Source: Bacteroidales bacterium (lineage in GTDB: Bacteria; Bacteroidota; Bacteroidia; Bacteroidales; F082). From it: a DNA stretch of 64,000 nt. The notes under the pieces were generated by a model. It saw nothing but the letters and a program-made list of their open reading frames with translations, was not told the origin of the DNA and made no database searches. The position numbers and the translations under genes were made by a program. The DNA lies in NCBI GenBank assembly GCA_024400305.1, contig JAKSMX010000002.1, positions 113,345 to 177,344 on the forward strand, in the 5' to 3' direction. Positions within the stretch are counted from its first letter, which is position 1, and every line of letters starts with the position of its first letter. Below are positions 14,723 through 28,199 of the stretch, piece by piece.

Positions 14723-15037
14723 ATGGATTATATCGAAATCATAAACATATTGCGTGAATCGGGTGAGAAAATTCTTCCACCTGAAGCCCGGCTATATCTT
14801 TATGGTTCACGTGCCCGTGGTGATTATAACGAAAATTCCGATTGGGATCTGCTCCTGCTACTCAATCGTCCTAAACAAAATGACGATTATGAAAAAATAG
14901 CATATCCTTTGATGGAATTGGGCTTTGACTTAGGACAATATTTCAGCGTACACACCTATTCAAAAGACGAATGGGACAGAATGTCGTTTTTGCCATTTTT
15001 CAAAAATGTGGAACGTGATAAAATTGCATTGGTATGA
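14723..15037 (+). CDS. Nucleotidyltransferase-fold antitoxin (MNT/MntA-like)
   Basis: A 104-residue minimal nucleotidyltransferase with the polymerase-beta-type motif YGSRARGDYNENSDWDLLLL: GS plus the DxD metal pair. Proteins of this kind in two-gene MNT/HEPN modules neutralise the HEPN partner, in characterised cases by transferring AMP to it. The stop overlaps the start of the HEPN gene by 4 bp (ATGA), so translation is likely coupled. The upstream promoter is clear. Activity on the partner is inferred from family context. Confidence 0.88.
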   Translation: MDYIEIINILRESGEKILPPEARLYLYGSRARGDYNENSDWDLLLLLNRPKQNDDYEKIAYPLMELGFDLGQYFSVHTYSKDEWDRMSFLPFFKNVERDKIALV

Positions 15038-15429
15038 GCTTGAGTGATGAAGAAAGAAAAATTGTTATTGGTTTGGAAACCGAGAAAGCAAGGAAAACTT
15101 TCGCTGAAATTGAAATCTTGCGTCAAGCAGGACTGTGGGACAACATCGCCAACCGGATGTATTATGCAGCATTTCATGCGGTCAGTGCATTGCTGATAAG
15201 CAACGGACATATTGTTGGAACACATCAAGGCGCAGTGATTATGTTGCATCAGCATTATATCAAAACAGGCATTCTTGAAAAGAAATACGGCACACTTTAT
15301 TCACGACTTCAGACCATGAGGGAGCAAAGTGACTACAACTGCACATACAACGCCACAGAAGAAGAGATAACTCCTCTGATATCATTAACCGGAGAGCTTA
15401 TCGAAAAAATATTAGCAATTATAAAATGA
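15034..15429 (+). CDS. HEPN-domain protein (partner of MNT)
   Basis: A 131-residue helical protein of the HEPN type usually encoded next to minimal nucleotidyltransferases. It has NIANRMYYAAFHAVSALL and, near the end, RLQTMREQSDYN, the (L/M)Rxx(A/S)DY pattern of this subgroup. The RNase motif R-x4-6-H of toxic HEPN proteins is not evident, so it may be non-catalytic or act differently. It overlaps the MNT gene by 4 bp. A degraded relative lies at 10089-10310. Confidence 0.82.
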   Translation: MSLSDEERKIVIGLETEKARKTFAEIEILRQAGLWDNIANRMYYAAFHAVSALLISNGHIVGTHQGAVIMLHQHYIKTGILEKKYGTLYSRLQTMREQSDYNCTYNATEEEITPLISLTGELIEKILAIIK

Positions 15430-24052: not shown

Positions 24053-25183
24053 CTACACAATTCCCAAAACTTTATCTATTTCATTCACAATATCTTCGGC
24101 TGCGTTCGGCCTTGCAAATTTAGAAATATTTTTCGACATGGCGGACATTTTTTCTTTGTTTTTAAGCAAATCGAAAACGACAGGCAAAAGTTCTGTTTCC
24201 GTCTTGTCGTTTTTCACCATCACAGCCGCATCAGCATCGACCAAACTCTGCGCGTTTTTCGTCTGATGGTCTTCGGCTGCTGTGGGGAGCGGCACGAAAA
24301 CGACAGGTTTCTTCACCAATGAAAGCTCGGAGATTGACATGGCACCGGCTCTTGAGATCACGATGTCGGCGGCGGCGTAAGCGAGATCCATTCTCTCTAT
24401 GAACACCATCGTTTTCACCCTTGCAGAAAGGCCGTACATCCCGATTTCATCCTCCGCACGGTCGATATAGAACTTACCTGTCTGCCAAATCATCTGATAA
24501 TCATTTCCATTGAACATGCCAAGTTGTGCGGAAACACCTTTGTTGATTCCGAGTGCGCCTTGGCTTCCGCCCACGAGCAGGATTATCGGCTTCTGCGGGT
24601 CGAGACCGAAGAAACGTGCGCCTTCCTCTTTAAGGTTCTCGTCAGAAACGATATTGTTTCTCAACGGGTTGCCGGTCAAGACGATCTTGTCTTTCGGGAA
24701 CCATCTGTCCATCTTTTCATACGCGACGCATATTCTGGCGGCTTTCGGCGCCACGATTTTGTTTGTGACACCCGGAAACGAATTCTGTTCCTGTATTACC
24801 ACAGGTATCCCCAAGGCCGTTGCCTTTCGCATCGTCGGCCCGCTGGCGAATCCGCCGACACCGACGACGGCATCTGGTTTGAATCTTTTCAGGATTTTCC
24901 TTGCTTTGCAGAGGCTGCTTATCAGTTTGAAGGGGAAACTGAAGTTGTCGAGTGACAGCTCACGCTTGAAACCGCTGATCCACAGTCCTTCAATAGGATA
25001 ACCAGCCTTAGGCACGCGTTCCATCTCCATCCTGCCCTTTGCCCCGACGAAAAGTATCTCGGCATCAGGATGACGTCTTTTGAATGCGTCCGCAATCGCA
25101 ATGGCCGGGAAGACATGGCCTCCCGTGCCGCCGCCGCTAACTATCAGCCTCGGCGACTTCAAGTTCCGCTTCTCTTTCATCAT
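24053..25183 (-). CDS. murG: UDP-GlcNAc:lipid I N-acetylglucosaminyltransferase
   Basis: A 376-residue GT28 glycosyltransferase making lipid II at the inner membrane face. It has the N-terminal loop SGGGTGGHVFPA (about residues 15-26), GVGGFASGPT, and the C-domain GGSQGALGIN and RAGAMSISEL motifs that bind UDP-GlcNAc. The start overlaps the end of ftsW by 47 bp, so the two are translationally close; a later in-frame Met does not exist before the glycine-rich loop except Met2. Confidence 0.96.
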   Translation of the reverse strand: MMKEKRNLKSPRLIVSGGGTGGHVFPAIAIADAFKRRHPDAEILFVGAKGRMEMERVPKAGYPIEGLWISGFKRELSLDNFSFPFKLISSLCKARKILKRFKPDAVVGVGGFASGPTMRKATALGIPVVIQEQNSFPGVTNKIVAPKAARICVAYEKMDRWFPKDKIVLTGNPLRNNIVSDENLKEEGARFFGLDPQKPIILLVGGSQGALGINKGVSAQLGMFNGNDYQMIWQTGKFYIDRAEDEIGMYGLSARVKTMVFIERMDLAYAAADIVISRAGAMSISELSLVKKPVVFVPLPTAAEDHQTKNAQSLVDADAAVMVKNDKTETELLPVVFDLLKNKEKMSAMSKNISKFARPNAAEDIVNEIDKVLGIV

Positions 25184-26324
25184 TCTTGTTTATATCTTTC
25201 GTTACACTTATTATTATTCCCAAAGCCATTCCCGTGAACAACAACGAAGTACCGCCCATGCTCACGAACGGCAACGGCTGTCCCGTCACAGGCAAAAGTC
25301 CGACCGCGACACCCATGTTTATCATCGCCTGCATGACAATGCTGAACGCAAGACCGATGCAGAGCAAGCCACCGAACGGATGCGCTTTTTTCACCACACG
25401 CATCGCACGATACAGAAGAATCATGTAAATCAACAGCACCGCAATGCCGCCGACAAGCCCGTACTCCTCAATGATTATCGCATAGATGAAGTCGGAATAC
25501 GGATGAGGCAACACGTTACGTTGGGTGCTTTTTCCGGGTGACTTCCCGAAAGCGCCGCCGCCGGCAATGGCGATCTCCGCCTGTTTGACCTGGAAATTCG
25601 CGTCACTGTCAATCTCTTCCTCGTCAGAGAAAAACCTGTCAAACCTGTTCACCCACGTCGTGATTCTGTTGTCAGCGTCAGGATTTGACTTTGAAATCAT
25701 CAGGCCGACAGATATGAAAAGGCCACCTGCAACGACCACGATTCCGAGAAACCCCAGAATGTATTTCATATCCAACCTGCTTATGAACATCATCACGAGG
25801 CAGACCACGAACAGCATCGCCGCCGTCGAGAAATTCTCCGGGAAAATAAGTCCGACCACGACGGTCACCGGAAGCATCACCCTCCAGGCCACCACCTTGA
25901 ACGTGATGAGCTCGTCGTGGCCGATGGCCAGCACTTTGGCGAGATAGCCCACGAGCGCGATTTTCGCCAAGTCGCTGGTCTGGAACGTCAGGCCGCCGAT
26001 GCCTATGACGCGCGAAGCATGGTTGAGATTCTGCCCGAAGAAAAGCGTATAAGCAAGCAACGGTATTGAAATCCAACACAATAACGTCAGAATCCATGAA
26101 TATTTTCTGTATTTGACACATGAGGCGAGAACCATGAAAACAAAGCCCAACACCAAGAGAATCGAGTGTTTCAACAACACAAAAGCGTTGCTGCCGTGAT
26201 ACCTGTTGTTTGCATACGACTCCGACGCGCTATAGACAGCGAGCATCGAGATCAGCATGAGAAAGATCACCATGACCCAGATGACCTTGTCCCCTTGAAC
26301 CAATTTTTTGATTTTTTCCTTCAT
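25137..26324 (-). CDS. ftsW: Septal peptidoglycan glycosyltransferase FtsW
   Basis: SEDS-family polymerase. From ATG 26324 the product has 395 residues and about ten membrane segments. It shows WVMVIFLMLISMLAVYSASE at the start, the LPHPYSDFIYAIIIEEYGLVG region and VSMGGTSLLF near the end, all SEDS hallmarks. The frame is open nine codons further upstream without a good start context, so the internal ATG is used. It pairs with the FtsI transpeptidase in the same cluster. The C-terminal charged tail overlaps the murG start. Confidence 0.95.
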   Translation of the reverse strand: MKEKIKKLVQGDKVIWVMVIFLMLISMLAVYSASESYANNRYHGSNAFVLLKHSILLVLGFVFMVLASCVKYRKYSWILTLLCWISIPLLAYTLFFGQNLNHASRVIGIGGLTFQTSDLAKIALVGYLAKVLAIGHDELITFKVVAWRVMLPVTVVVGLIFPENFSTAAMLFVVCLVMMFISRLDMKYILGFLGIVVVAGGLFISVGLMISKSNPDADNRITTWVNRFDRFFSDEEEIDSDANFQVKQAEIAIAGGGAFGKSPGKSTQRNVLPHPYSDFIYAIIIEEYGLVGGIAVLLIYMILLYRAMRVVKKAHPFGGLLCIGLAFSIVMQAMINMGVAVGLLPVTGQPLPFVSMGGTSLLFTGMALGIIISVTKDINKNDEREAELEVAEADS

Positions 26325-26347
26325 CTTTTTATTGTTTTTATTGATTA

Positions 26348-26887
26348 TCAATTGTTTCTTGCATATTTCACGAATTCGGAGGCGAGAACATCGTCGTTCA
26401 TCTCAACAGACTTCGCAGCCGGCGAGAAGATGACATTCTGGCCTGAAACCGTCATGGACTCAACGATTTTCATCGCTTCTTCCATGTTCCCGGCATTTCT
26501 TACGCCGCCGCGGACCACGCCGCCGAATGACTTGCTGACGTTTTCGCAGTCATTGCCGATACACACAATCGCCACCACGCATTGACGCACGACCGGGATA
26601 AGTTCCTCATAATCATCACATCCGCCGATGGTCAGCCATATTGTCGGAGCCGTGATGTCGCTCAAAGTGAAATACGTGGCGGTGATGCTTTTCGCGCCCG
26701 AATCGTCAATAAAGCTCACGCCGTTTCTCATTTCGACGACCTCATTTCTGTGTTTGATATGTTCGCAGTCAATGAAACTGTCGCGCAGATTCGCCTTGCG
26801 AGCCTGGAAAATGTTGCTGCTAATAGTGGCAGCCGTCGTAAAAGTCTCTGTTCTTCTACCCTGTTTTGCAAGTTGTTCTAAAGTCAT
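26348..26887 (-). CDS. murD: MurD remnant: C-terminal Mur-ligase domain only
   Basis: A 179-residue product where a full MurD of about 440 is expected. It aligns with the last part of MurD: IKHRNEVVEMRNGVSFIDDS, the APTIWLTIGG strand, and IFSPAA near the end. The N-terminal UDP-binding domain and the whole ATPase domain with its P-loop are absent, and only 31 bp separate this gene from mraY, so no broken upstream half remains. Key residues are changed: the usual DSKATN reads DSGAKS, the DKGxDY loop reads CDDY, and SPACASFD reads SPAAKSVE. It cannot be a working ligase by itself. A full MurD should exist elsewhere in the genome. Confidence 0.85.
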   Translation of the reverse strand: MTLEQLAKQGRRTETFTTAATISSNIFQARKANLRDSFIDCEHIKHRNEVVEMRNGVSFIDDSGAKSITATYFTLSDITAPTIWLTIGGCDDYEELIPVVRQCVVAIVCIGNDCENVSKSFGGVVRGGVRNAGNMEEAMKIVESMTVSGQNVIFSPAAKSVEMNDDVLASEFVKYARNN

Positions 26888-26918
26888 TTTCTTAAAATTT
26901 AAATATTGTTTTTTATAA

Positions 26919-28199
26919 TTATCTTATTTTCAATGTTAAAATAGCGACAGCCACAAGAATTATCGTCACGATCCAGAATCTGACCGTGATTTTCATTTCA
27001 TGAAGCAGGTCGCCTTTGCCTTTGTAAATCACGCTGCTCGTAGGATCCAATTTCAGAACCTGGTCCATTGAGGTGCGGAAATGGTCGTGGATAGGAGTGC
27101 GTTTCCAGATGCGGCGATGCACGCCTTTGCGTTTTCCTGAGACATAAAACATCCGTTGTCCTATGACAGATACGCTTTCAAGAAGGAAGATGCCGCACAT
27201 CACCGGGAGCAGCAGTTCCTTATGAATGATTATCGCCGAAACAGCGATGATGCCGCCGATGGTGAGACTTCCGGTGTCGCCCATGAAGACCTGCGCCGGG
27301 AACGAGTTGTACCAAAGGAAACCTATCAAAGCACCGATGAACGCTGCAAGGAAAATCACAACTTCTTCACTGCCAGGGATATACATAATATTCAAATACC
27401 CGGAGAGCATGGCGTTACTCGAAAGATACGCCAAGATGCCGATGCCAAGTCCGATGATAGCCGAGTTCCCGGCCGCCATGCCGTCCATGCCGTCGTTGAG
27501 GTTCGAGCCATTTGAAACAGCCGCCACTACGAAGACGGTCAGCGCAACGAAGAAAATCCAACCGGCGTAATATTTGTAAGGCTCGCCAAGAAAACTGAAA
27601 ATGTCAGCGTAGTTCAGGTTGTTGTTCTTCAGAAACGGTATCGTCGTTCTCGTTGACTTCACGCCCGGTGACTTCACCACGATTTCCTTGTTGTTTTCAA
27701 TTTTCTTCACAACACTTTCATTCATAACGACTTGCGGGCTAAAACGAAGCGTAAGTCCGACGATGAGACCGAGTGCCACCTGACCGAAAATTTTGTACCA
27801 ACCCTTGATGCCGTCCTTGTTTTTCTTGACCGTCTTGATGTAGTCGTCGGCAAAGCCGATTCCGCCAAGGATGACAGTCGTGACAAGCATAAGAATCATA
27901 TATACGTTATGCAGTTTCCCGATGAGGAGGCATGGGATCAATATTGACGCGATGATTACGATGCCGCCCATCGTCGGGACGCCTTTCTTGTTGACGTTGA
28001 ACGGGTCAATCTTCGCATCACGCTGGGTTTCAGAGATGTTATGCTTTTTCATGTAATTGATGAAAACCTTTCCGAGCCATATTGACACGACGAGTGCGAT
28101 GATTATGGCGACGATGGCGCGGAATGTGACATAATTGAACATTCCGGCACCAGGGAAATTCAACCTTTCATCAAGAAAATCAAAGAGATAATACAACAT
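26919..28199 (-). CDS. mraY: Phospho-N-acetylmuramoyl-pentapeptide transferase
   Basis: A 426-residue integral membrane enzyme that forms lipid I from UDP-MurNAc-pentapeptide and undecaprenyl phosphate. Conserved blocks: GGIVIIASIL, GFADDYIKTVKKNKDG (Asp pair), NGSNLNDGMDGMAAG, FMGDTGSLTIGG (catalytic Asp) and RIWKRTPIHDHF (the HHH-like loop). About 30 extra residues lie in a periplasmic loop, common in Bacteroidota. It starts 12 bp after murE. Confidence 0.97.
   Translation of the reverse strand: MLYYLFDFLDERLNFPGAGMFNYVTFRAIVAIIIALVVSIWLGKVFINYMKKHNISETQRDAKIDPFNVNKKGVPTMGGIVIIASILIPCLLIGKLHNVYMILMLVTTVILGGIGFADDYIKTVKKNKDGIKGWYKIFGQVALGLIVGLTLRFSPQVVMNESVVKKIENNKEIVVKSPGVKSTRTTIPFLKNNNLNYADIFSFLGEPYKYYAGWIFFVALTVFVVAAVSNGSNLNDGMDGMAAGNSAIIGLGIGILAYLSSNAMLSGYLNIMYIPGSEEVVIFLAAFIGALIGFLWYNSFPAQVFMGDTGSLTIGGIIAVSAIIIHKELLLPVMCGIFLLESVSVIGQRMFYVSGKRKGVHRRIWKRTPIHDHFRTSMDQVLKLDPTSSVIYKGKGDLLHEMKITVRFWIVTIILVAVAILTLKIR

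Follow-up and report, generated by a model that had tools for sequence, protein, structure and literature searches.

The open reading frame between mraY and ftsW in a Bacteroidales genome is the C-terminal domain (CTD) of what was once a canonical (D-Glu type) MurD, and it is not a recent leftover. In Bacteroidales, murD has very probably been truncated many times, always to this domain and usually at the same internal Met. The best reading, to which we give a probability of about 0.6 from sequence comparisons, is that a CTD product, started internally in murD and having a non-catalytic role, outlived the enzyme.

A stand-alone MurD domain between mraY and ftsW

The window (the whole stretch of DNA that was analyzed, 64,000 nucleotides) contains the truncated gene, or stub, in the following arrangement.

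26348..26887, minus strand: stand-alone CTD of canonical MurD ('MurD-C'), 179 aa, from a profile match and a predicted model
26885..26887, minus strand: start codon of the stub, which aligns with the internal Met (M-T-L-E-E-L-A-L-Q-G-K-H-N) of full-length Bacteroidales MurD
26888..26918, minus strand: AT-rich 31-bp spacer from the mraY stop to the stub start; ~800 bp of murD (N-terminal and central domains) are missing here
26919..28199, minus strand: mraY, the upstream neighbour
25137..26351, minus strand: ftsW, the downstream neighbour, given as the longest frame, from TTG; the ATG at 26324 is the probable start

The original prediction held that this gene encodes only the last Mur-ligase domain, in 179 residues, and that key residues of the domain are altered. 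Both points were borne out. The profile of canonical MurD (TIGR01087) matched the stub only over profile positions 279-424, with 69.3 bits against a cut-off of 211.95, and a Pfam search on the stub gave no match. In the predicted model, residues ~1-45 form a helical arm of low confidence and residues 46-179 a Mur-ligase C domain, which is modelled as well folded and Rossmann-like. The stub does not have the three domains, P-loop and score above the curated cut-off that mark a canonical MurD. Its motifs read DSGAKS, GGCDDY and SPAAKS; K319, T321 and K348 (E. coli numbering) are changed and the Ser of SPACAS is kept, leaving the set of catalytic and substrate residues of the canonical domain (K319, T321, K348 and S415) incomplete in the window stub. 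We rejected a split MurD with its N-terminal part elsewhere, as the one MurD-type gene above cut-off in the genome is complete and is MurD2 by its switch residues.

Across the whole window, a search with Rfam at its gathering thresholds returned two tRNAs only. Two adjoining small ORFs at 14723-15429 on the plus strand look, by eye, like a minimal nucleotidyltransferase and a HEPN protein, a pair that we take to be a common toxin-antitoxin type.

A MurD2-MurL pair in the source genome

In Xanthomonas oryzae, as described in a review (PMC8788868), MurD2 adds L-Glu and MurL epimerises the product. Both were active in vitro as recombinant enzymes, and the L-Glu preference of MurD2 is set by a Glu and an Arg at the positions that hold Asp182 and Lys348 in E. 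coli (PMC8788868).

It had been proposed, as one of two options, that MurD was moved or replaced elsewhere in the genome, and a search of the genome for a full-length copy was suggested. The search found one MurD-type gene above the family cut-off in the whole genome, at G000:C37. It is complete, but by its switch residues it is MurD2 and not the canonical enzyme. MurL is the upstream gene of the pair, and the two frames overlap by 8 bp. This MurL matched NF041275 over residues 80-420 with 267 bits (E 2.2e-79), below the curated cut-off of 700 bits of what is a Xanthomonadales model; the protein is homologous and lies outside the model's group. The pair at C37 is thus a MurD-like ligase beside MurL that carries the Glu and Arg switch residues. 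Among MurD2 sequences, Glu was found at E. coli position 182 in 62 of 63 rows and Arg at position 348 in 63 of 63 (some genomes are entered twice). Full-length MurD of the dcw cluster had Asp in 55 of 56 rows and Lys in all 56. Glutamate racemase (MurI) was not found in the source genome. Given the MurD2-MurL pair and no detected MurI, the canonical D-Glu ligase has very likely been replaced by the MurD2-MurL route, with activities assigned from homology. Together with the conservation of the stub and the purifying selection on it (below), this favours the version of the original prediction in which MurD was replaced elsewhere and the stub has a new or second role.

MurL and MurD2 were fused in a single frame of 901-954 aa in loci L066, L086, L090, L093, L097 and L327 (L066 and L097 are from one genome).

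Distribution of MurL and of the two forms of murD

We found MurL in 125 of 393 genomes of the order, and MurI (TIGR00067) above cut-off in 241 of the 393. None of the 125 MurL+ genomes had a MurI reaching the TIGR00067 cut-off; 28 gave weak matches (best E 6e-22) and the rest none. The MurD CTD of the dcw cluster was a stub in 47 of these genomes, part of a full-length gene in 68, cut by a contig end in 4 and not found in 6. Fetched loci show mraY just upstream of 46 of the 47 stubs, the exception being G040, whose contig stops short of mraY; they also cover 42 of the 68 full-length genes. Two of the genomes in which no CTD was found, G164 and G055, gave weak mraY-like matches only, and the dcw cluster is probably missing from their assemblies. 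The remaining ones are G112, G216, G271 and G195, of which G112 and G216 belong to f78. G112 (L296) has MurL and no detected stub, and its mraY is separated from the other dcw genes.

The stub search in MurL-lacking genomes of the 393 covered relatives. Full-length murD was present in 16 of these 18 genomes, a stub in G050, and neither in G052 (70% complete). In G050 (L139, f16), which is 98% complete, we found the murD stub, yet no MurL, MurI or MurD above cut-off. Outside the order, all 60 Bacteroidota genomes had a MurD match, with a frame of >=443 aa in 58 (289 aa in G437, 431 aa in G441).

Several candidate stubs were discarded. The 111-aa frame of G041 is due to a contig end; G087, G130 and G414 were classed as cut by a contig end, and G142, whose frame of 267 aa lies close to the start of its contig, was provisionally treated in the same way.

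Repeated truncation of murD

In loci that include mraY, the stretch between the mraY stop and the CTD stop measured 515-823 nt in 77 stub loci and 1335-1533 nt in 55 full-length loci, with no intermediate lengths. We constructed phylogenetic trees from concatenated MurE, MraY, FtsW, MurG and MurC. The trees of 97 and 112 rows left out most f1 rows, G003 and G041, and two 77-row trees left out 35 further rows. The minimum number of changes between stub and full-length forms was 13 (97 rows), 17 (112 rows), and 19 and 18 (77 rows, the 18 coming from a quick tree). Well-supported branches forced 13, 14, and 16 and 13 of these changes, respectively. The stubs fell into 19 maximal all-stub clades in the 112-row tree and into 19 and 20 in the 77-row trees. 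We read these changes as truncations because a gene would not be expected to regain its 5' half once it is gone. A single ancestral truncation was rejected, since the trees require 13-19 stub/full changes. Stubs and full-length genes occurred inside a single genus in f6, f35, f50, f117 and f120.

Of 79 stubs, 55 have a Met in the alignment column that holds the internal Met of full-length MurD (MTLEELALQGKHN); outside the genus of the source genome the count is 32 of 43. Stubs without the aligned Met begin near that column, and in f2, f33, f55 and f72 the N-terminus is divergent. No N-terminal piece of MurD was found in any of the 79 stub loci.

A start-like signal inside full-length murD

We analyzed the region around the internal Met in 42 fetched full-length genes from MurL+ genomes (out of 68), in 14 MurL- Bacteroidales and in 30 other Bacteroidota. 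The Met was present in 41 of the 42, 13 of the 14 and 23 of the 30 genes, respectively; in G183 the position is occupied by Ile. In the MurL+ group, the GC content of the 24 nt upstream of the Met was 0.253 against 0.413 for the gene, and the 11 windows of lowest GC, of 441, all end between codon -9 and codon +1. Synonymous AT bias in the eight codons after the Met ranked second of 443 positions, with rank 1 one codon away. Its mean z was -1.48 (-0.11 at the gene's own start), 27 of 30 family means were negative (p=3e-8), and the bias ranked 1 to 4 in 95% of 500 subsamples of 14 families. In 95% of the 42 MurL+ genes, local RNA structure at the Met was weaker than in the rest of the gene, compared with 71% and 67% in the other two groups.

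The bias was smaller in MurL- Bacteroidales (mean z -0.46, rank 46; n=14, rows clustered on the tree) and in other Bacteroidota (mean z -0.56, p=0.007, rank 16; n=30). The strongest signals of these two groups sit close to the start of the gene and at its end, the point at which ftsW would start. The differences from the MurL+ group gave Mann-Whitney p values of 0.01 and 0.001 on rows that are related to each other. Upstream of the internal Met, the Bacteroides-type -7 box TAnnTTTG occurred once against an expectation of 1.16, showing no enrichment.

Full-length murD of MurL+ genomes therefore has a conserved in-frame Met in an AT-rich, weakly structured and synonymously biased context. This context resembles a translation start region, and we lean towards predicting an internal start there. 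Given the weak bias in other Bacteroidota, the AT-rich stretch could instead be a free linker.

Catalytic residues and the source of D-Glu

In full-length murD of MurL+ genomes, the P-loop was kept in all 37 genes examined, and K319, T321, K348 and S415 were all kept in 56 of 56 full-length genes. With these active-site residues in place, the ligase does not look abandoned; it seems to be still active in MurL+ genomes with full-length murD, where a source of D-Glu may still be available. The 79 stubs kept Lys348 in 16 cases and Lys319 in 28, and the His of GKHN was absent in 76. The fold core (W72, W84, V106, P157 and F175 in CTD numbering) was conserved. Since the catalytic residues drift while the fold core persists, ligation is unlikely to be the kept function of the stub.

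Among 80 MurL+ genomes, a Dat-like fold-IV aminotransferase (~255-310 aa) was found in 29 of 42 with full-length murD and in 7 of 38 with the stub. All matches were below the TIGR01121 cut-off and were sorted by hand on E-value and frame length, with a partial frame in one of the 29. Over tree-independent pairs, the association had a median p of 0.0625. It is possible that this protein is the D-Glu source; it could also be PabC.

Conservation of the stub and selection on it

A comparison of the mraY-ftsW interval across relatives, one of the checks that had been proposed for the original prediction, gave the stub in 32 of 35 congeners, with no stop inside the match in any of the 32. In the three others the interval itself is missing: no mraY was seen in G002 or G006, and in G003 the contig ends within murG. 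We gathered 71 distinct stub sequences in the genus, including named records (58 loci); all are open. Only open frames were collected, and each of the 96 loci provided one. Where the titles of named records give a host, it is ruminants or horse. Four of the 35 congeners gave no MurL, among them G023, which is 97% complete and carries the stub. L115 (G013) and L129 (G023) showed no murG between ftsW and murC, where the other congener loci spanning this stretch have it.

A second proposed check was dN/dS, which we computed for 28 disjoint pairs drawn from the 71 sequences (dS 0.05-1.5). The median was 0.183 and the range 0.038-0.482, indicating purifying selection; the medians of the neighbouring genes were 0.06-0.13, about half that of the stub. 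Outside the genus, close pairs gave 0.054-0.211, and two f72 pairs near saturation gave 0.49 and 0.83. The stub has neither the disrupted frame nor the dN/dS near 1 of a pseudogene. It is under purifying selection as a protein, somewhat weaker than its neighbours, and very likely encodes a functional protein.

Proposed explanation and its alternatives

With MurD2 joining L-Glu and MurL epimerising the product, the D-Glu ligase would become dispensable. Before truncation, murD would already have yielded a second product, the CTD alone, from the internal AUG. Deletions of everything 5' of this AUG would then be tolerated, and loss of the CTD mostly not. The CTD would work without catalysis, most likely as a protein-contact module, a role that we propose only tentatively. 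It might fill the place of MurD among the cytoplasmic precursor proteins (MraY, MurG, FtsW and other Mur ligases) and so hold their assembly together, or it might partner or dock MurD2 or MurL. Mur enzymes, MurD included, are reported to bind MreB, MraY or MurG (PMC4929429). The odds look about even for the full sequence of events, in which murD made two products under the MurD2-MurL route and at least ~13 lineages dropped the ligase and kept the CTD for an important non-catalytic role, in the MraY-FtsW precursor machinery or at the MurD2-MurL step. The stub without MurL in G050, and MurL without a CTD found in G112 and G216 (f78), run counter to the best reading.

Alternatively, the role of the CTD might have arisen with the new route, as a dedicated subunit or activator of MurD2 or MurL, rather than going back to a general place that MurD always had in the assembly. 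Both the stubs and the start-like signal do go with MurL+ lineages, the signal is weak in the MurL- Bacteroidales and in the other Bacteroidota, and long MurD frames prevail outside the order. We nevertheless consider a dedicated subunit rather unlikely. Since MurL+ almost coincides with a clade in this set, the association is not an independent one; the stub of G050 occurs without MurL; and recombinant MurD2 and MurL of X. oryzae were functional in vitro (PMC8788868).

An effect of the DNA or RNA in the operon (spacing, translational coupling of mraY and ftsW, or an internal promoter), and not of the protein, would account for the tight fit of the stub between its neighbours and for the AT-rich start region. 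Pure coupling or a cis element is less likely because the constraint acts on the protein, at the amino-acid level and with conserved core residues. The predicted model is well folded, and the -7 box is not enriched upstream of the internal Met. Overall, we rate such a role as improbable.

The possibility that the stub is a slowly decaying remnant of a dispensable murD, open by chance, is more doubtful still. D-Glu ligation appears replaced, active-site residues drift, the dN/dS of the stub is above that of its neighbours, and f78 seems to have lost it. However, dN/dS is below 0.5 in all 28 disjoint pairs, the fold core is conserved, and many independent lineages were left with the same domain and no N-terminal piece. 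The original prediction had allowed for a fresh remnant that was open by luck; this idea does not fit a stub that is genus-wide, open in 71 distinct sequences, and matched by the same state reached independently in other families.

That an assembly or binning artefact hides a full-length murD has a negligible chance: all genomes are drafts and many are MAGs, but the same interval is seen in 32 congeners, in several sequencing projects and in contigs of >1 Mb (G292, G321), and locus lengths are bimodal.

The persistence of an internally started, non-catalytic CTD, our preferred reading, would make these genomes a natural and repeated deletion experiment on a core cell-wall enzyme, in which catalysis became dispensable and the same domain was kept repeatedly. 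A protein of 180 residues would suffice for testing the long-suspected non-enzymatic role of Mur ligases. Bacteroidales commonly have the MurD2-MurL route, and many gut bacteria appear to use this alternative route to cell-wall building blocks, with a murD that in many lineages is cut to its last domain, is under selection and probably has a second, non-enzymatic job. For annotation pipelines, a short 'murD' in the dcw cluster need not mean a pseudogene or an assembly fault.

Comparison with known systems

Searches of the open literature brought up no study of a CTD-only MurD or of MurL from Bacteroidota, and no earlier description of a repeated reduction of MurD to one domain that is tied to a pathway swap and comes with an internal start signal.

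The stub shares with canonical MurD its place in the dcw cluster between mraY and ftsW and the fold and sequence of the C-terminal domain. Unlike canonical MurD, it is without the N-terminal (UDP-binding) and central (ATP-binding) domains, and the active-site residues of its CTD are changed. As in the X. oryzae route, MurD2 and MurL are adjacent in the source genome, the L-Glu switch residues are present and MurI was not detected. The taxa that the available sections of the review give for this route are Gamma- and Alphaproteobacteria and actinobacteria, with no Bacteroidota, whereas MurL is present here in roughly a third of Bacteroidales genomes; a leftover MurD domain, present in Bacteroidales, is not mentioned in those sections (PMC8788868).

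In-frame internal starts are known to give C-terminal proteoforms in bacteria and phages (PMC11005335, PMC12203907), and the predicted shorter second product of murD would likewise come from one frame. The Bacteroidales short form differs in being predicted from sequence bias, and it would be the sole product after repeated 5' deletion. Mur ligase complexes scaffolded by MurG or MreB offer a possible reason for keeping a MurD-shaped part; the available text on them describes no CTD-only member and no CTD interface (PMC4929429), whereas the Bacteroidales stub consists of the CTD only.
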